From contig AP017959.1 in NCBI GenBank assembly GCA_002356215.1, positions 682,001-746,000 of the forward strand: DNA of 64,000 nt, read 5' to 3'. Source of the DNA: [Synechococcus] sp. NIES-970 (GTDB taxonomy: Bacteria; Cyanobacteriota; Cyanobacteriia; Cyanobacteriales; MRBY01). How positions within the stretch are numbered: the stretch's first letter is position 1; the number at the start of each line of letters is the position of its first letter. The position numbers and the translations under genes are program-made. Shown here piece after piece: positions 35,922 to 63,810 of this stretch. The notes beneath the pieces are model-generated. The model was not told the origin of the DNA, searched no databases, and was given only the letters and a program-made list of their open reading frames with translations.

Positions 35922-36125
35922 TTAGAAACCGAGGGCTGTCCAATCTACCTCAAAACCTTCGAGAATCAGAGAAGAGTTGTAAATCTGGAGAATAATAAGC
36001 AGGAATACTAAAAATAACGCCATGAAGACGCCCATCAGCGGTGTAGTGCCCCAACCAGGCGCAACCTTACCGTATTCAGAATTTAAAGGCTTGAGGATAT
36101 CTCCCAACCGAGTACGCTGTGCCAT
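35922..36125 (-). CDS. psbH: Photosystem II protein PsbH
   Basis: A 67-residue single-helix subunit of photosystem II, located next to CP47 and needed for stable assembly and QA-QB function. The N-terminus [28 protein letters not shown] is the typical stromal part, followed by the transmembrane helix [21 protein letters not shown]. The cyanobacterial form lacks the plastid phosphorylation extension, as here. A TATAAT-type -10 box (36168-36173, minus strand) is about 45 bases upstream. psbN is divergently placed on the other strand, as in most cyanobacteria. Confidence 0.97.
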
Positions 36126-56415: not shown

Positions 56416-57570
56416 ATGATGGAATTTGTTTACGATTTCAGTCAACTACCAAACTACCTTGAAATACTCAAGAAAAAGTTAAGAATTGCCGTCATTTATG
56501 GGGGAGATAAAACAGCTCAAGGGGCCGTTATTTATCAGACTCACAATCCCCGTTCCACCAAAACCTATGAAGTAGTTGCCCGGGACATTGCTGCTGCTCT
56601 CACAGATTTAGGTTTCCAACAGGTTTGCGTTTTACCTGATGATGCAACTTTGGGCGATCGCCTGCGAGAAAAGCAAATTCACTTGGCTTGGCTCAATACA
56701 GGCGGGGTGCAAGGTTACAACCCTGTTTGCCACACTCCGGCAATCCTAGAAATGTTGGGGGTTCCCTACATCGGCCATAATCCCCTCAATAGCTCGATTT
56801 TAGATAATAAACATGCCTTTAAACGGGAGTTACAAGGGCTCGGTTTCCCCACCGCCCCGTTTATGATTTGGCATCCCGCCCAGGGCAAATTTACAGCAAA
56901 AAATAACCCCCGCTTCCAGAAAACGTTTGCCGATTATCAAGGGGCTTTTTTGGTAAAACCGGTATCGGGTCGGGCTTCATTAAATATTCATTTCATCGCC
57001 CAACCTGAAGATCTCGGTGAGGCGATCGCCAACATTCATCAACAGACCCACAACACCGCTTTAATTGAACCTTTCCTGACAGGGCGAGAGTTTTGTGTCT
57101 CCGTTTGTGGCTATGTGCGTCACCGCCAAGACAAATTTGAAAAATTAGCCGCGCCTTTTACATTTTCTGTTTTAGAGCGACTTTTGGAACCAGACGAAAA
57201 GATTTTTACTTCCATGGATAAAAAAGCAATTACTGGCCAAAGAATTCGCTTTTTAGAAGACAGTGACCCAGCCAAAGAAAAGTTAATGAAATTAGCGCAA
57301 CAAGTCTACTGGGAATTTAGTTTAAATGCCCTCATTCGCATTGACGCGCGGATGGATGGAGCGGGGAATATCCAAATTTTAGAAGCAAACCCCAAGCCCG
57401 ATCTCAAACGACCAGGGGCCAATGTTACTAGTCTTGTGGCCCAGGGGCTCTCAGAACAACAAATGACCTATGAAGATTTGATTCTGTCTCTGATTAGCGA
57501 TCGCCTGGATTATTTGTTCACCAACCACGCCCAGATCATCCCCCAGATCACCGCATTGCTGGCCGCCTAA
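56416..57570 (+). CDS. ATP-grasp protein, D-alanine-D-alanine ligase-like
   Basis: A 384-residue ATP-grasp ligase. The N-terminal domain starts near residue 24 with LRIAVIYGGDKTAQGAV, the central part has LEMLGVPYIGHNPLNSSILDNKHAFKRELQGLGFPTAPF, and the metal/ATP end has ALIRIDARMDGAGNIQILEANPKPDLKRPG. These fit the Ddl family, but the length exceeds the usual 310-350 and the omega loop is unusual, so it is probably not the housekeeping Ddl. Other D-Ala ligase relatives join amino acids in peptide or mycosporine-like products; no mys genes are near. Function unknown. Confidence 0.75.
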   Translation: MMEFVYDFSQLPNYLEILKKKLRIAVIYGGDKTAQGAVIYQTHNPRSTKTYEVVARDIAAALTDLGFQQVCVLPDDATLGDRLREKQIHLAWLNTGGVQGYNPVCHTPAILEMLGVPYIGHNPLNSSILDNKHAFKRELQGLGFPTAPFMIWHPAQGKFTAKNNPRFQKTFADYQGAFLVKPVSGRASLNIHFIAQPEDLGEAIANIHQQTHNTALIEPFLTGREFCVSVCGYVRHRQDKFEKLAAPFTFSVLERLLEPDEKIFTSMDKKAITGQRIRFLEDSDPAKEKLMKLAQQVYWEFSLNALIRIDARMDGAGNIQILEANPKPDLKRPGANVTSLVAQGLSEQQMTYEDLILSLISDRLDYLFTNHAQIIPQITALLAA

Positions 57571-57612
57571 CAAATAAATTTACAAATTTACAGCGGGGGC
57601 GATCGCCTGCTA

Positions 57613-57618
57613 TATAAT
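57613..57618 (+). promoter_or_regulatory. -10 box of the B12 uptake operon
   Basis: TATAAT 23 bases before the start of the cobalamin aptamer, placing the transcript start at about 57625. A clear -35 is not seen. Confidence 0.5.
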
Positions 57619-57640
57619 TAAATCTTGATAATTAAAATCA

Positions 57641-57765
57641 ATTCGGTTTTACCGGGGACCAGCCGGTAAAAGTAATGGGGAAAGAACGGTGAAAATCCGT
57701 CGCTGTCCCGCAGCTGTAAAGAAATTTGCAAAATTTCTAAGTCAGAATGCCCGCCGAATCCAGAA
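57641..57765 (+). promoter_or_regulatory. Cobalamin (AdoCbl-class) riboswitch
   Basis: Closing stem ATTCGG (57641-57646) with CCGAAT (57754-57759). Inside is a perfect 9-bp hairpin TTTTACCGG/CCGGTAAAA (57647-57671), then the conserved core AATGGGGAAAGAACGGTGAAAATCCG, the strongly conserved GCTGTCCCGCAGCTGTAA, and a B12-box variant AGTCAGAATGCCCGCC (57740-57755). Together these are diagnostic. It leads btuB, so excess cobalamin should lower expression of the uptake genes. Confidence 0.95.
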
Positions 57766-58074
57766 AATACACATTACTTAAACCATCTGCGAGGTACGGA
57801 TGTTGACCCTCAATTCTTTTTTTCTCGCCCGCGATCAATTTCCTTTGCCAAGACTGCAATATCGCTACAGCCAGCGCCAGTTTTGTTAAGACAATGCCCA
57901 TTTTTACATCGGCAGCTTCGTGATTAATCACGGGCTTAATCGGTTTTGATCAAACAGATTTTTTACTGATTTAGGGTAATCAGTAGCAGTTTTTCTTTGA
58001 TTTTTTACTGAGAATTCTGCCGATTAACGGTCAATATCGCTACATCTAATTCACATTTTTTTGAACTTACTTCA
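57766..58074 (+). other. Leader between the aptamer and btuB
   Basis: About 310 bases without a gene. It contains the perfect 14-base palindrome CGTGATTAATCACG (57919-57932), a hairpin TACTGATT/AATCAGTA (57964-57985) followed after four bases by TTTTTCTTT, which could be the riboswitch-controlled terminator, and a 13-base direct repeat CAATATCGCTACA at 57857 and 58032. Confidence 0.5.
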
Positions 58075-60057
58075 ATGGCCCAATTTTCCTTTGTTAAGAC
58101 CGTTTCTTGTGTTTTTCTTTATTTGTTCTGTGGCGCGATCGCCGCTGCTGCTCAAACGGAAATCAACCTTCAAGCAGACTCAGAAACTGAAGATCAAGAA
58201 ACCGTTGATTTTGAGTTGACAGTAATCGATCAGCTTTTAAATCAAACGGTTTATGGCCCTTCCCGCCGTGAAGAAACGGTTAAAGATGCCACCCGCGCCG
58301 CCTATGTGATTAACCGTGAGCAGATCGAAGCCCAGGGTTATCGCACGGTGAATGAAGCCTTGCGGTATTTTCCTGGCATTTTTACGGATAGTACCTCTGG
58401 ATCCCGCTTGGGAGCCCAAAGTTCCCAAATTTTGCGGGGGGCGAACAACTCTTCCCAAACTCTGATTTTGCTTGATGGCAGACCGATTAACCGTTTTGAT
58501 TCTGGTGCTTTCGATCTATCGACTTTAACAACGGATAATGTGGAGCGGATCGAGGTCATCCCTGGGGGCGGTTCGGCGCTATTTGGCTCCAATGCCATCG
58601 GCGGGGTGATCAACATCGTCACGCGGCAACCGGAATTTAATCAACCGGTAGTGGTGGAAACGGGTCTTGATTTGGGGAGCTTTGGCTATAATCGCCAGCG
58701 GGTCGGGGTGAGTTTTGGGTCGGAGGCCCAGGCTGTTCGCGTTGCCTATGACCGCACGGCTGCAGATAATGACTTTGAGTTTGATATTCCGGTCAGTGGT
58801 CTAGCGGGAATCCGAGATAATGCCGCTAGTAATATTCAAAATGTGAACCTCCAGGCAGTTACCCAGTTAGGCGATCGCCATCGACTGCGCTTTAGCGGTA
58901 TCTATAGCAGCAAGGATCTCGAAATTCCGGGGAGTGTGACTTTCCCTAGCCCTAACGCGACGCAATACGACAATAATTGGCTACTGTCATTGGATTTAGA
59001 GTCTCGCCTCGGCAATGGCGATGATTCAATGCTGACAACGAAGGTTTTCGCAGATTTCAATGATTTTCGTTTCTTCAATGATCAATTTGGGACGACCGAT
59101 GCCCGCTATGAAAACCGTTCCTTTGGCACACAAATCCAGCATAACTGGCAACTCAGCGAGACCCAAAACCTCACCTATGGCGTGGATTACCGCTATTTAA
59201 CCGCAACAGCAGAAGATCCTGGTGTGTTTGGCTTTAGCTATGACGAAAACCTCAGTCAGGGGGCGATTTTTGCGCGCTATGGCTGGGATGTTTCCCCGGA
59301 ATTTGCCCTCAATTTTGGTCTACGCCAAGACTTTAATAGTTTGGCGGATGGTTCGGTGACGTCTCCGAGTGCCGGGTTTGCCTGGCAAGTAGGAACAGCC
59401 ACCCGCATCCGGGGTAATTATGCCCGCAATTTCCGCGTTCCCACAGCGGTGGATCTATATTTCCCTGGGTTTAGTAATCCTGATTTAGTCCCGGAAACGG
59501 CCAATAGTTTTGACTTGGGCATTGACCACCGCTTTTCTGACCGGGCACTGGTGCGACTAACCTATTTTAATAACACCCTCGATGATGCCATTGTTTTCGA
59601 CCTCGGCACATTCACCCCCCAAAATATTCAAAAAGCCCGGAATCAAGGTTTAGAGGCAGAGTTAACAGTGCAACTGGCGCCTTCTCTTTCTGCTTTTGCT
59701 AACTACACTTGGAACAACTCTAAAATTCTCGCCGACACTAATCCTGCATTCGTTGGCAATGAGGTCGCCTTTGCGGGGACGGATTATTTCAATATTGGCC
59801 TCGCCTACGAAAATCCCCAGGGTATTTATGCGGGTGTTTTCCTGAAGCGGGTGGGCGATCGCCTAACAAATAACGCCAATACAAACTCCCTTGAAGGCTA
59901 CACCAATGTGGATTTGCGGGCTCGCTACCCCCTCAGTGAAACCGTGAATCTGACGGCGAGTGTGGAAAATTTATTTGACGCAGATTTTGAAACCTTCCCG
60001 GGCTACCCTGGAGTGGAACGGCGCTTCCAAATCGGCGTGAATGCCCGCTTCCGTTAA
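58075..60057 (+). CDS. btuB: TonB-dependent outer-membrane cobalamin receptor
   Basis: Outer-membrane gated barrel of 660 residues that imports vitamin B12 with energy from TonB. The signal peptide ends near residue 27 (AIAAAAQ). A short linker with a TonB-box-like stretch (ELTVIDQLLNQTVYG) leads into the plug domain (about 65-185) with TRAAYVINREQIEAQGYRTV, ILLDGRPINRF and IEVIPGGGSALFGSNAIGGVINIVTR. The barrel ends in RRFQIGVNARFR, with an extra Arg after the usual terminal aromatic. The upstream cobalamin riboswitch and downstream BtuF/BtuC genes specify the substrate. Confidence 0.92.
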   Translation: MAQFSFVKTVSCVFLYLFCGAIAAAAQTEINLQADSETEDQETVDFELTVIDQLLNQTVYGPSRREETVKDATRAAYVINREQIEAQGYRTVNEALRYFPGIFTDSTSGSRLGAQSSQILRGANNSSQTLILLDGRPINRFDSGAFDLSTLTTDNVERIEVIPGGGSALFGSNAIGGVINIVTRQPEFNQPVVVETGLDLGSFGYNRQRVGVSFGSEAQAVRVAYDRTAADNDFEFDIPVSGLAGIRDNAASNIQNVNLQAVTQLGDRHRLRFSGIYSSKDLEIPGSVTFPSPNATQYDNNWLLSLDLESRLGNGDDSMLTTKVFADFNDFRFFNDQFGTTDARYENRSFGTQIQHNWQLSETQNLTYGVDYRYLTATAEDPGVFGFSYDENLSQGAIFARYGWDVSPEFALNFGLRQDFNSLADGSVTSPSAGFAWQVGTATRIRGNYARNFRVPTAVDLYFPGFSNPDLVPETANSFDLGIDHRFSDRALVRLTYFNNTLDDAIVFDLGTFTPQNIQKARNQGLEAELTVQLAPSLSAFANYTWNNSKILADTNPAFVGNEVAFAGTDYFNIGLAYENPQGIYAGVFLKRVGDRLTNNANTNSLEGYTNVDLRARYPLSETVNLTASVENLFDADFETFPGYPGVERRFQIGVNARFR

Positions 60058-60099
60058 CGTTGCCTGTGAAGTCCCCTGCCATTTAACCCCCAATTTTCT

Positions 60100-60867
60100 A
60101 TGGTCAGAATCGCCCAAATTACCGATACCCATCTCCTCGATCGCCCGGGGGCAGAAATGCGCGGCGTCAAAACCGATTCGTCTTTTCAGGCGGTGTTGGC
60201 GGCGGTGCTACGGCAGAAGCCAGATCGGCTCATTTTGACGGGGGATCTGGCCCATGACGGCGAAGCGATCGCCTACGAGCGGCTGCGGGATCTGGTTGAA
60301 GCGACCCAGATTCCCAGCTATTGGCTGCCGGGGAACCATGATGATCCAGAGGTGATGGCCGGGATTTTGCAGGGAGATTATCTTTCAGCGGAAAGGAGCA
60401 TTTCCCTAGACCAGTGGCAATTGCTGCTGTTGGATTCGCACCACGAAAACCCAGCATATGGCGAAGGCTTTTTAAGCGCCCAGCAATTGGCTTGGTTGGC
60501 CGCCCAATTAGAGCAGCATCAAAATTTGCCGGTGGCGATCGCCTTACATCACCATGTAGTGCCGGCGGGGATTGATTGGCTCGACCAAATTAACGTGACC
60601 AACTGCGGCGAATTTTGGCAAGTTGTCCAACAGCATCCCCAGGTGAAAACTGTTTTCTTTGGCCATGTGCACCTGGAATATAGCGTTACCCAAGGGGGAA
60701 TTCCCTGTTTTGGGACGCCCTCTACTTGTACCCAGGTGACGCCCCCGAATCAGGAATTAAAAGAAGGCGATCGCCAACGGTGGGAGCAACCGGGCTTCCG
60801 TTTATTTGACCTCCACGACGATGGCCGCTTTGCCACAACTGTGCAACGAATCCCATGGTTTTTGTAG
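60100..60867 (+). CDS. cpdA: Calcineurin-like phosphodiesterase, CpdA type
   Basis: Cytoplasmic dinuclear-metal phosphoesterase of 255 residues. The metal motifs are complete: DTHLL, GDLAHDG, PGNHDD, LHHHVVP and GHVHLEYS. The best family match is class III cyclic nucleotide phosphodiesterase (CpdA). It lies inside the B12 operon, 42 bases after btuB and with its stop next to the SD of btuF. Why a cAMP-type phosphodiesterase is there is not known; it might instead hydrolyse a nucleotide-like part of corrinoids, which is inference. Confidence 0.88.
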   Translation: MVRIAQITDTHLLDRPGAEMRGVKTDSSFQAVLAAVLRQKPDRLILTGDLAHDGEAIAYERLRDLVEATQIPSYWLPGNHDDPEVMAGILQGDYLSAERSISLDQWQLLLLDSHHENPAYGEGFLSAQQLAWLAAQLEQHQNLPVAIALHHHVVPAGIDWLDQINVTNCGEFWQVVQQHPQVKTVFFGHVHLEYSVTQGGIPCFGTPSTCTQVTPPNQELKEGDRQRWEQPGFRLFDLHDDGRFATTVQRIPWFL

Positions 60868-60875
60868 GAGAAAAA

Positions 60876-62090
60876 ATGCCCCTTCCTTTGTTTCGATACC
60901 GCTCCTTTCCCCTCCTGGGCTTGGGTTTATCCCTATGGCTAGTGGGTTGTGGCCCGACCCAACAAACGGTAGAAACCCCGACTGCAACGGCGGCCTGTGT
61001 CGAAAATTATGATCCGGCGGTTGATTATTTCCCGGAGAAAGTGGCGCCAGAATTTGCGGCGGGTTTCCAGGTGACTTATCACAACCATTACAAAGTGGTG
61101 ACCGTGCGCCAACCTTGGGAAACAGCCCAGCAGGATTTGACCTATGTTTTCGTCCAGTGCGGCACACCCATTCCCGAAGATTACCCAGAGGCCACCATTG
61201 TCGAAGTGCCCGTCCAGCGCATCATTGCCCTTTCGACGACCTATTTACCCCATCTGGAAGTACTCGACTATCAATCACAGTTACTTGGGGTAGGCGATCG
61301 CCAGCTCATTTACAGCCCCGAAATTCGCGCTGCCATTGAAGCGGGTGAAATCCAAGAAGTGGGCAATTTAGAACTTGACCGAGAAAAACTCCTCACGCTC
61401 CAGCCCGATGTGGTTTTAAATTATCGCCTTGATACCAGTGAAGGGAACAATACAGCGGCCCTCGATGCCTTGGGGTTAACGGTGGTGCTAGATGCGGCCC
61501 ACCTGGAACCAACACCTTTGGGCCGGGCGGAATGGCTTAAATTTACAGCTCTGCTGTTCAATAAAGAGGCCGCAGCTAACGACATTTTTGGGGCGATCGC
61601 CAACCGTTACGAAGCCCTGATGGATCAAGTCCGAGATTTAGAAGCCATTCCCACGGTGCTGAGTGGTTCCCCCTACCAAGGGGTCTGGTATGTGCCTGGG
61701 GGCGAAAGCTATGTGGCCCAACTGTTTCGGGATGCTAATGTGAACTATCCCTGGGATGCGACAACGGCTCGCCTCAGTTTACCCCTCGATTTAGAAGCGG
61801 TGTTAAATCGAGCCCAGGACGCCGATCTTTGGCTAAACGTAAATCCCGCTTGGCAGAGTACCGCCGATATTTTCCAAGAAGACCGCCGCTATGACCTATT
61901 TACAGCGGTGCAAAATCAACAGGTCTATGCTGCCAACAAGCGGGTCGCCCCCGGGGGGGGGAATGATTTTTGGGAAGGGGGCGTGTTAAATCCGGATGTG
62001 ATCCTCGCCGATGTGATCAAAATTGCCCACCCTGATGTGTTGCCCGACCACGAACTTTTCTATTACCAACATCTGCAAGATCCCCAGTGA
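60876..62090 (+). CDS. btuF: ABC cobalamin/iron-complex binding lipoprotein, BtuF-like
   Basis: A 404-residue periplasmic binding protein of the helical-backbone class. The ATG at 60876 has AGGAG at a good distance; an in-frame ATG at 60855 overlaps cpdA and is less likely. A lipoprotein signal has lipobox LVGC (Cys near 25). The two lobes appear as VPVQRIIALSTTYLPHLEVLD and GVWYVPGGESYVAQLFRDANVNYP, joined by a long helix. The protein has an N-terminal extra stretch as seen in archaeal and cyanobacterial relatives. Context in a riboswitch-led operon suggests cobalamin rather than siderophore. Confidence 0.88.
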   Translation: MPLPLFRYRSFPLLGLGLSLWLVGCGPTQQTVETPTATAACVENYDPAVDYFPEKVAPEFAAGFQVTYHNHYKVVTVRQPWETAQQDLTYVFVQCGTPIPEDYPEATIVEVPVQRIIALSTTYLPHLEVLDYQSQLLGVGDRQLIYSPEIRAAIEAGEIQEVGNLELDREKLLTLQPDVVLNYRLDTSEGNNTAALDALGLTVVLDAAHLEPTPLGRAEWLKFTALLFNKEAAANDIFGAIANRYEALMDQVRDLEAIPTVLSGSPYQGVWYVPGGESYVAQLFRDANVNYPWDATTARLSLPLDLEAVLNRAQDADLWLNVNPAWQSTADIFQEDRRYDLFTAVQNQQVYAANKRVAPGGGNDFWEGGVLNPDVILADVIKIAHPDVLPDHELFYYQHLQDPQ

Positions 62091-63139
62091 AAATTCCCTA
62101 CTCCACTACCCCTTTAACCTTTTTGCCGTGGCCCACTGTGCGGTGGCGATCGCCCTCTTTACTGCTGGTGTTGGGGCTGGTCTGGGGAGGCTTGTTTTTT
62201 CTGAATTTAGGGCTGGGCTCGACGACAATTCCCTGGGATCAACTGTTGGCGATCGCCCTAGGCCGCCCCGTCGATAATCCAGTTTGGGCCAATATCGTTT
62301 GGCAACTGCGTTTACCGCGGGCGATCGCCGCGACCTTTGCGGGGGCCGCCTTGAGTATTAGTGGTCTCCAGATGCAAACCCTGTTTAACAATCCCCTCGC
62401 CGGCCCCTTTGTACTGGGGATCAACTCTGGTGCGAGTTTAGGGGTGGCGATCGTCCTGCTCGGGACGGGGTTTATGGGCGGTGTGCTCGGCACGTTGAGC
62501 GTGGCCATGGCTGCCAGTCTCGGGGCCGTTGCTGTTTTTTTATTAATTTTGGCGATCGCCCGGCGTGTCCCCCACAACAGCACCTTACTAATTTTGGGGC
62601 TGATGTTGGGCTATGTGAGCAATGCTTTAGTGACCCTCCTGTTGCACTTCAGTCCTGCTGAAGCCCTGCGCCTCTATCTCAGTTGGACATTCGGCAGTTT
62701 CGCGGCAATCCACCGGGAACAGTTACCTATTTTTATTACCCTCATTCTTGCTGGTGGCTTACTGGCATTTTTCCAAGCGAAACCCCTCAATGCTCTCCTA
62801 TTAGGCAAACAATACGCCGAGAGTGTGGGCCTCAATCTCCGGGCTACCCGCCGCCAAATCATTGCTAGTACAGCGCTGCTGGCAGGTTCTGTCACTGCTT
62901 TTTGTGGCCCTATTTCCTTTATCGGGATTGCTGTGCCGCACCTTTGTCGAGGCTTACTGAAAACCGTTGACCATCGTCTATTGGTTCCGGCGGTAACTCT
63001 TTTGGGGGCAAGTTTAGCGCTCTTGGCAGATATCATCGTGCAATTGCCGGGCAGCGAACTGACTTTACCCCTAAATGCGGTTACAGCAATGTTTGGCGCT
63101 CCAATTATTATTATTTTAATTTTACGTCGGCATTCTTAA
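62087..63139 (+). CDS. btuC: ABC cobalamin/iron-complex permease, BtuC-like (FecCD family)
   Basis: Inner-membrane permease of 350 residues with about ten helices. The GTG start overlaps the btuF stop (GTGA), showing translational coupling. Family signatures are IVWQLRLPRAIAATFAGAALSISGLQMQ, NNPLAGPFVLGINSGASLG, ESVGLNLRATRRQIIAS, CGPISFIGIAVPHLCR and PGSELTLPLNAVTAMFGAPI. Such permeases dimerise with an ATPase (BtuD or FecE); that gene does not follow here. With btuB and btuF this completes the outer-membrane, periplasmic and membrane steps. Confidence 0.92.
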   Translation: MKIPYSTTPLTFLPWPTVRWRSPSLLLVLGLVWGGLFFLNLGLGSTTIPWDQLLAIALGRPVDNPVWANIVWQLRLPRAIAATFAGAALSISGLQMQTLFNNPLAGPFVLGINSGASLGVAIVLLGTGFMGGVLGTLSVAMAASLGAVAVFLLILAIARRVPHNSTLLILGLMLGYVSNALVTLLLHFSPAEALRLYLSWTFGSFAAIHREQLPIFITLILAGGLLAFFQAKPLNALLLGKQYAESVGLNLRATRRQIIASTALLAGSVTAFCGPISFIGIAVPHLCRGLLKTVDHRLLVPAVTLLGASLALLADIIVQLPGSELTLPLNAVTAMFGAPIIIILILRRHS

Positions 63140-63201
63140 CTGCGGCGAGGTGCACGGCAGATCGAAGCTTTCAAATTGTTTATCTGCATTTTCGAATCAC
63201 C

Positions 63202-63810
63202 ATGGAAGAATATTTAAGAGCCAGTCAGGTTATTGATTGTCAACATCCTGAAATTGTTAACCTTGCACAAAAAATTGCATTAGGCCACCAAAGCTCAACA
63301 GCGATCGCCAAGAAATGCTTTGAGTGGGTACGAGATGAAATTCGTCACAGCTTTGATTACCAGATGAACCCTGTGACTTGTCGCGCTTCTGATGTTCTTA
63401 GACATAAAACAGGTTATTGCTATGCTAAGAGCCATTTGTTGGCGGCCTTATTGCGGGCAAACCAGATTCCCGCAGGGTTTTGTTATCAGCGCTTGAGCAT
63501 CGATGATCAAGGCGCCCCTTATTGCCTACATGGTTTCAATGCAATCTATTTACCTGAAATAGGTTGGTATCGTGTTGATGCAAGGGGCAACAAAGAAGGA
63601 GTTAACGCTCAATTTTCTCCCCCTCAGGAACAGTTAGCGTTTAAGATTCAATTTCCTGAAGAGGCAGATTTTCGGGCAATTCTTCCTGAGCCACTGCCAA
63701 TTGTAGTTGAGGCATTGCAAGCCCAAACAACTTGGGAGGGGATGCTTCAGAGACTTCCAGATGTAACCCTAGCCTCTGCAAATAGCTATGGTCTGGCACT
63801 CGATCATTAA
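63202..63810 (+). CDS. Transglutaminase-like cysteine protease-fold protein
   Basis: A 202-residue protein with the transglutaminase core: the catalytic Cys in RHKTGYCYAKSHLLAALLRA, the His in YCLHGFNAIYLPEIGW, and the Asp in YRVDARGNKEG. No signal peptide or membrane helix is visible, so it is cytoplasmic. In bacteria these proteins mostly act as peptidases or amidases rather than crosslinkers. It starts 62 bases after btuC on the same strand and might be co-transcribed, but a link to B12 is not evident. Confidence 0.88.
   Translation: MEEYLRASQVIDCQHPEIVNLAQKIALGHQSSTAIAKKCFEWVRDEIRHSFDYQMNPVTCRASDVLRHKTGYCYAKSHLLAALLRANQIPAGFCYQRLSIDDQGAPYCLHGFNAIYLPEIGWYRVDARGNKEGVNAQFSPPQEQLAFKIQFPEEADFRAILPEPLPIVVEALQAQTTWEGMLQRLPDVTLASANSYGLALDH

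Follow-up and report, generated by a model that had tools for sequence, protein, structure and literature searches.

Among the described systems, the closest to the locus studied here is the btuB-cpdA-btuC-btuF operon of Synechococcus sp. PCC 7002, which is controlled by a cobalamin riboswitch (Perez, Rodionov and Bryant 2016, as cited in PMC8123684), and the presence of a cpdA gene in a B12 operon is therefore not new. In the portions of the open-licence literature returned by our search, the role of the cpdA product is not described beyond the operon mention in PMC8123684. The Anabaena PCC 7120 cluster alr4027-btuB2-alr4030-btuF-btuC-btuD likewise combines a riboswitch with BtuB, BtuF and BtuC, but it includes BtuD, and the available portion of PMC10878165 names no phosphodiesterase there. 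Class III phosphodiesterases share the motif D-(X)n-GD-(X)n-GNH[E/D]-(X)n-H-(X)n-GHXH, and their sequence does not predict their substrate (PMC4222275). Regarding corrinoid metabolism, CbiR hydrolyses the phosphoribosyl bond of cobamides to Cbi-P and alpha-ribazole, after which CobU, CobS and other enzymes can rebuild a cobamide, and remodelling is also carried out by CbiZ and by V. cholerae CobS (PMC7733943). Almost all cyanobacteria encode the pseudocobalamin route, and very poor binding of cobalamin has been stated for their MetH (PMC12903740).

Here, we analyse a 64,000-nucleotide stretch (the window) of the 3.12 Mb genome of [Synechococcus] sp. NIES-970, in which an open reading frame of 255 residues with an ATG start encodes a calcineurin-like metallophosphoesterase (Table 1). 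The gene lies 42 bp downstream of a TonB-dependent receptor gene, its 3' end shares 13 nt with the start of btuF, and btuF in turn overlaps btuC by 4 nt. A cobalamin riboswitch aptamer sits upstream in the same direction, making this a cobalamin riboswitch operon. The tight spacing and the riboswitch-led setting that a sequence-only reading of this DNA had described are thus both confirmed. The same four genes make up the PCC 7002 operon, although the review gives the last two in the opposite order (PMC8123684; available portion), and the window's order recurs in Picosynechococcus sp. PCC 7117 (locus L009), the nearest named relative fetched, with 83-87% protein identity (83% in the cpdA-like protein). 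An uninformative scan of positions 57500-63300 listed 11 terminator-like sites (7.7 expected) and 3 promoter-like sites (5.5 expected), none of them within the btuB-cpdA gap. Directly after btuC follows a transglutaminase-like frame (63202-63810) and no ATPase; this transglutaminase-core frame has no match in the PCC 7117 locus, where a 515-residue frame follows btuC. Elsewhere in the window, positions 36024-36084 match the plastid psbN 5'UTR RNA (RF04353, 55.3 bits).

Table 1. Coordinates of the operon features in the window and of related features in other loci and contigs.
Feature	Position	Strand	Basis
Cobalamin riboswitch aptamer, operon leader	57627-57772	+	RF00174, 67.6 bits (gathering 31.5)
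BtuB-like TonB-dependent receptor	58075-60057	+	PF00593/PF07715; best NCBIfam match TIGR01779, under cut-off
CpdA-derived metallophosphoesterase, btu-linked clade	60100-60867	+	PF00149, motifs, AF2 model, tree, residue counts
BtuF-like substrate-binding protein	60855-62090	+	PF01497; lipoprotein-like start by eye
BtuC-like FecCD permease	62087-63139	+	PF01032; best NCBIfam match BtuC NF003001, under cut-off
DUF7676 genes	L024:3768-4637, L050:3820-4707, L058:3136-4017, L131:4989-5861, L151:5084-5965		
metE riboswitch region	L146:3819-9760 (contig C2, about 78818-84760)		

The btu names are given by context. The receptor scores 209.2 bits against the BtuB model TIGR01779 (cut-off 599.7), the permease also 209.2 bits against the BtuC model NF003001 (cut-off 334), and the BtuF-like protein has no NCBIfam match at E<=0.001, being recognised by PF01497 alone; the names are therefore based on the riboswitch, together with the order of the genes and the operon described for PCC 7002, and we refer to the receptor as BtuB-like and to the permease as BtuC-like.

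The metallophosphoesterase itself matches PF00149 with 59.3 bits (cut-off 21.5) and carries the complete class III phosphodiesterase motif set (D9/H11, G48-D49, G78-N79-H80-D81, H150-H151 and G188-H189-x-H191). Its AF2 model (pLDDT 95.0) has the calcineurin-like fold, with GpdQ (2zo9; Z 31.5, rmsd 3.1 over 243 residues) and Rv0805 (3ib7; Z 30.2, rmsd 2.7 over 241 residues) as the nearest solved structures; the modelled fold is the expected one and leaves the substrate undecided, and absences in the fold searches were given no weight as evidence. At E<=0.001, the only Pfam matches are Metallophos and Metallophos_2, and PF01261, the family of CbiR, is not among them. As no signal peptide was seen by eye, the protein is taken as cytosolic. 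The sequence-only reading had called it a CpdA-like phosphodiesterase with all motifs intact, and this much stands; on the curated equivalog model for the 3',5'-cAMP phosphodiesterase CpdA/Icc (NF008359), however, it reaches 204.8 bits and falls short of the cut-off of 225. The likeness to CpdA consists of full-length similarity and the metal-site motifs.

We compared the gene order around relatives of the window protein in two sets. One comprised the best 80 of 348 relatives, a set that leans towards the window protein because the search patterns were derived from it. In 16 of these 80 loci, btuB, btuF and/or btuC adjoin the cpdA-like gene, in genera including Adonisia, Leptolyngbya, Nodosilinea, Spirulina, Acaryochloris, Prochloron, Cyanothece and Picosynechococcus. 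Two loci with a TonB receptor (29% and 24% identity) some kilobases from CpdA (L018, L156) were counted as unlinked. The placement of the gene varies, being before btuF in the window's genus and after btuF in most others, where the common order is btuB, a DUF7676 gene in some, btuF, cpdA and btuC. In 10/16 linked loci, btuF and cpdA overlap by 4 nt, with starts chosen mechanically. The other set, a survey of 120 genomes, the window's own included, starts from whole genomes and covers relatives of the same order only. A BtuF of the window type (E<=1e-20) was found in 22 of these, and a cpdA-like gene adjoins it in 14; the remaining eight (G029, G054, G057, G061, G087, G091, G107, G111) have BtuF without the cpdA-like gene, and the notion that cpdA always accompanies btuF across cyanobacteria thus fails. 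By contrast, confinement of the linkage to one strain, named beforehand as an outcome that would overturn the sequence-only reading, is ruled out by the same two comparisons (16/80 loci, 14/22 BtuF genomes). The linkage of cpdA and btu genes is neither chance nor a single-strain feature, and it recurs in distant cyanobacteria.

A cobalamin riboswitch was detected in 18 of the 21 distinct cpdA-linked loci scanned, from which L015, L019, L125, L129, L135 and L136 were excluded. The three misses are L016, where the contig stops 475 bp before the btuB frame, L134, where it stops just before cpdA and lacks btuB, and L130, which has no btuB within 14 kb. A search for BtuD, with three BtuD-like queries that themselves come from L141, L142 and L145, covered 29 linked loci, including two duplicates. 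A BtuD-like ATPase match lies near only one of the 27 distinct cpdA-linked loci (L137, divergent), with matches of 27% identity at about 70 bits in L131 and L135 set aside, versus six of the eight BtuF loci without cpdA; four of these six follow btuC, that in L140 is on the other strand and that in L143 lies beside a second permease. These counts are suggestive of mutual exclusion between CpdA and BtuD, but the exclusion is not strict, and no mechanism is drawn from the pattern because loci stop at contig ends and because the window genome has an ATPase 49% identical to a BtuD-like protein, its best BtuD candidate, on contig C2 (22816-23553).

Two further features of these operons were observed. 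In cyanobacterial btu operons, whether or not they contain cpdA, a gene for a DUF7676 protein is repeatedly found between btuB and btuF, and some DUF7676 proteins carry a weak C-terminal match to 2Fe-2S ferredoxin; the protein is perhaps involved in reduction of the imported corrinoid, and the ferredoxin-like alr4030 of Anabaena may be the counterpart of the DUF7676 gene seen in several operons of the cpdA type. Additionally, a CbiD gene lies just upstream of the btu operon in four genomes (G014, G042, G082 and G098; L131:1362-2441, likewise L133, L135 and L136).

Phylogenies separate the linked proteins from other CpdAs. In a tree of 80 rows, the 17 linked proteins form one side of a branch with SH-aLRT 99, and in a tree of 75 rows, including 6 of 22 gammaproteobacterial rows, 27 linked and two unlinked rows form a single clade (bootstrap 100/SH-aLRT 99). 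The two clade members without adjoining btuB, btuF or btuC are L151 (genome G068), which lies near genes for DUF7676 and CobW proteins, and L158 (G018), which has no B12 gene among the neighbours scanned. Ordinary CpdAs occur in other cyanobacteria away from btu genes: 26 further unlinked CpdAs from the 120-genome survey all fall outside the clade, and the stretches fetched around them contain no match to btuB, btuF, btuC or DUF7676. Since these 26 are all of the remaining unlinked CpdAs, a clade member is present in 16 of the 120 genomes, two of which (G010 and G068) carry an ordinary CpdA as well.

The clade also differs in its scores against the CpdA model. The score threshold was applied as E<=1.5e-66, set near 225 bits by interpolation between individual NF008359 scores, and was reached by none of the 29 clade members versus 38 of 40 unlinked cyanobacterial CpdAs. 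The latter are 40 of the 41 unlinked cyanobacterial loci in the 80-locus set; L069, with an in-frame stop near the start of its matched stretch, was dropped from this set and from all trees. Individually scored, six clade members gave 167.7 to 204.8 bits and three unlinked cyanobacterial proteins 248.4 to 262.8 bits. By trees and model scores, the operon cpdA belongs to a separate subfamily whose members mostly sit in the operon and score below the CpdA equivalog cut-off, a clade that split from CpdA and is tied to the B12 uptake operon under riboswitch control in cyanobacteria. As far as the literature was searched, this is an addition to what is known of this operon.

Residue counts were made for the 29 clade members and 77 other CpdAs (72 cyanobacterial and 5 of 22 gammaproteobacterial), leaving out L126, L132 and L153, which come from a genome already represented, as well as L134 and L072 (planctomycete). 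All nine metal-site residues checked (D9, H11, D49, N79, H80, H150, H151, H189 and H191) are kept in 29/29 clade members, which makes an inactive paralogue unlikely. Positions typical of CpdA have been lost or are free to vary: Q192, adjoining the GHxH motif, is found in one clade member versus 75/77 other CpdAs, F213 in none versus 71/77, and K99 in 12/29 versus 75/77. Conversely, R21 (28/29 versus 2/77), H152 (29/29 versus 10/77), E122 (28/29 versus at least 2/77) and an insertion of two residues before G123 (28/29 versus 2/77) are characteristic of the clade, and the loop after Q212 is shorter in most members. That the metal site is intact while positions next to it have changed points to an active enzyme whose pocket is altered; the changed positions would presumably face the substrate. 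W160, D162, N168, Q212 and R234 are common to the clade and ordinary CpdAs, and a nucleotide substrate therefore stays plausible. Metal-site residues are missing from a few ordinary CpdAs of the window's order (D49 replaced by N in 3/32; single cases of H11, N79, H80 and H191), hinting at inactive copies.

For the genomic context of B12 metabolism, CobU, CobS and CbiD were queried in 24 genomes, 16 with a clade member and 8 with BtuF but no clade member. CobU and CobS were both found in all 24 and do not discriminate between the groups. CbiD was chosen as the marker of de novo synthesis instead of CbiC, which was set aside because it is matched in 116 of the 120 genomes, in many of them with two or more copies. 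CbiD is matched in 8/16 clade genomes versus 8/8 comparison genomes, and the clade genomes without it are six of the window's genus, the window genome among them, together with G048 and G018, representing about three lineages. As a single marker, the absence of CbiD does not prove auxotrophy; in the related strain PCC 11901, multiple pathway genes are missing (PMC9313322; available portion). The control genome of E. coli has CobU and CobS and no CbiD match. In the window genome, a second cobalamin riboswitch, on the 138-kb contig C2, precedes metE, followed by close-packed small frames and a methyltransferase. Class III adenylate cyclase (PF00211) is matched in 114/120 genomes and in 15 of the 16 clade genomes, G018 being the only exception, and was rejected as a discriminating partner. 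G018 also has no CbiC or CbiD match, nor a BtuF match at 1e-20.

In cobamides, the phosphoribosyl bond is a ribose ester formed through the 3' oxygen, of the kind cut by cAMP phosphodiesterases, and a CpdA whose pocket has been reshaped is therefore a reasonable origin for an enzyme acting on it. From the operon position, the metal-site residues, the single clade, the lost CpdA residues and the presence of CobU and CobS in the 16 genomes, all of which were computed, we infer a corrinoid substrate. Our main reading, to which we assign a probability of roughly 37%, is that the protein is a dedicated phosphodiesterase, cytosolic and metal-dependent, which opens the nucleotide loop of cobamides after their import, as the unrelated CbiR does, and so supplies CobU and CobS. 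It would hydrolyse the phosphoribosyl ester (the P-O3' ribose ester) in the loop to give cobinamide phosphate and a ribosylated lower ligand, and CobU and CobS would then rebuild the form preferred by the host, probably pseudocobalamin; importers of foreign cobamides would gain by swapping the lower ligand, and when B12 is abundant, the riboswitch would shut uptake and processing together. The broader proposal, that the btu-linked clade is a new family of cobamide-remodelling metallophosphoesterases arisen from the cAMP-phosphodiesterase lineage, with imported cobalamin rebuilt into pseudocobalamin and with uptake and remodelling under one riboswitch, is rather doubtful. The parallel to CbiR extends to the proposed reaction and to the genomic setting, in which the phosphodiesterase gene neighbours corrinoid genes and the host has CobU and CobS (PMC7733943; available portion). 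The folds differ, CbiR being a member of the AP endonuclease 2 superfamily and the window protein a calcineurin-like metallophosphoesterase for which the corrinoid reaction is proposed. Nucleotide-loop processing, raised by the sequence-only reading, gains circumstantial backing from the recurrent linkage, the separate clade, the lost CpdA residues, CobU and CobS in 16/16 clade genomes, the lack of CbiD in half of them, G018 without a cyclase and the CbiR precedent. Speaking against it, CobU and CobS are equally present in the 8/8 comparison genomes, half of the clade genomes have CbiD, E. coli keeps CobU and CobS without this enzyme, L151 and L158 lack adjoining btu genes, G018 has no BtuF match, 8/22 BtuF genomes do without the gene, other remodelling enzymes exist, and five residues are common with ordinary CpdAs.

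Other substrates would fit parts of the same evidence. The coupling of B12 to cAMP, also raised by the sequence-only reading, would require a genuine 3',5'-cAMP (or cNMP) phosphodiesterase under riboswitch control, with cAMP falling when B12 is short. Such an enzyme agrees with CpdA being the best curated model, with GpdQ and Rv0805 as the nearest solved folds and with the intact motifs, as well as with the one class III cyclase match in the window genome and the cyclase matches in 15 of the 16 clade genomes; as this genome has no second match at E<=1e-20, the protein would be its sole CpdA-class enzyme. We nevertheless regard a cAMP substrate as unlikely, since no clade member attains the CpdA score, residues that unlinked cyanobacterial CpdAs share with those of gammaproteobacteria have been lost, the cyclase-less G018 has a clade member, and G010 and G068 hold an ordinary CpdA in addition. 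It is quite unlikely that the operon captured a general phosphodiesterase, acting on 2',3'-cyclic nucleotides or glycerophosphodiesters, that plays no particular part in B12 use: among solved structures Rv0805 and GpdQ come closest, Rv0805 and SpdA prefer 2',3'-cNMP (PMC4222275; available portion), and both the variable position in the operon and the BtuF genomes lacking the gene would suit such an enzyme, but the linkage persists through different gene orders in diverse cyanobacteria and clade membership tracks it with two exceptions.

That the protein instead acts in the lower-ligand branch, as an alpha-ribazole phosphate or cobamide-5'-phosphate phosphatase replacing CobC, is very unlikely. 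CobC was not found in any cyanobacterial genome according to the available portion of PMC12903740, the gene is placed in a B12 operon, and monoesterases exist among the metallophosphoesterases; the nearest solved relatives, GpdQ and Rv0805, are nevertheless phosphodiesterases. The gene cannot be the general missing CobC because the distribution of the clade (16/120 genomes) is too narrow in comparison with that of CbiC (116/120).

The name CpdA leaves unexplained why the gene sits in the published PCC 7002 operon, and, judging from the clade's sequence features, may be misleading for its members. The clade evidence yields a short list of substrates that can be tested in a genetically tractable cyanobacterium. 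If the cAMP reading were true, the operon would link a vitamin directly to a second messenger through a riboswitch. If remodelling of imported cobamides is true, the clade would bring a further fold to the remodelling enzymes, of which CbiZ, CbiR and V. cholerae CobS have been named (PMC7733943), and would help to account for the retention of CobU and CobS in genomes without CbiD. The cobamide that a cyanobacterium can use shapes the exchange of B12 in aquatic communities.
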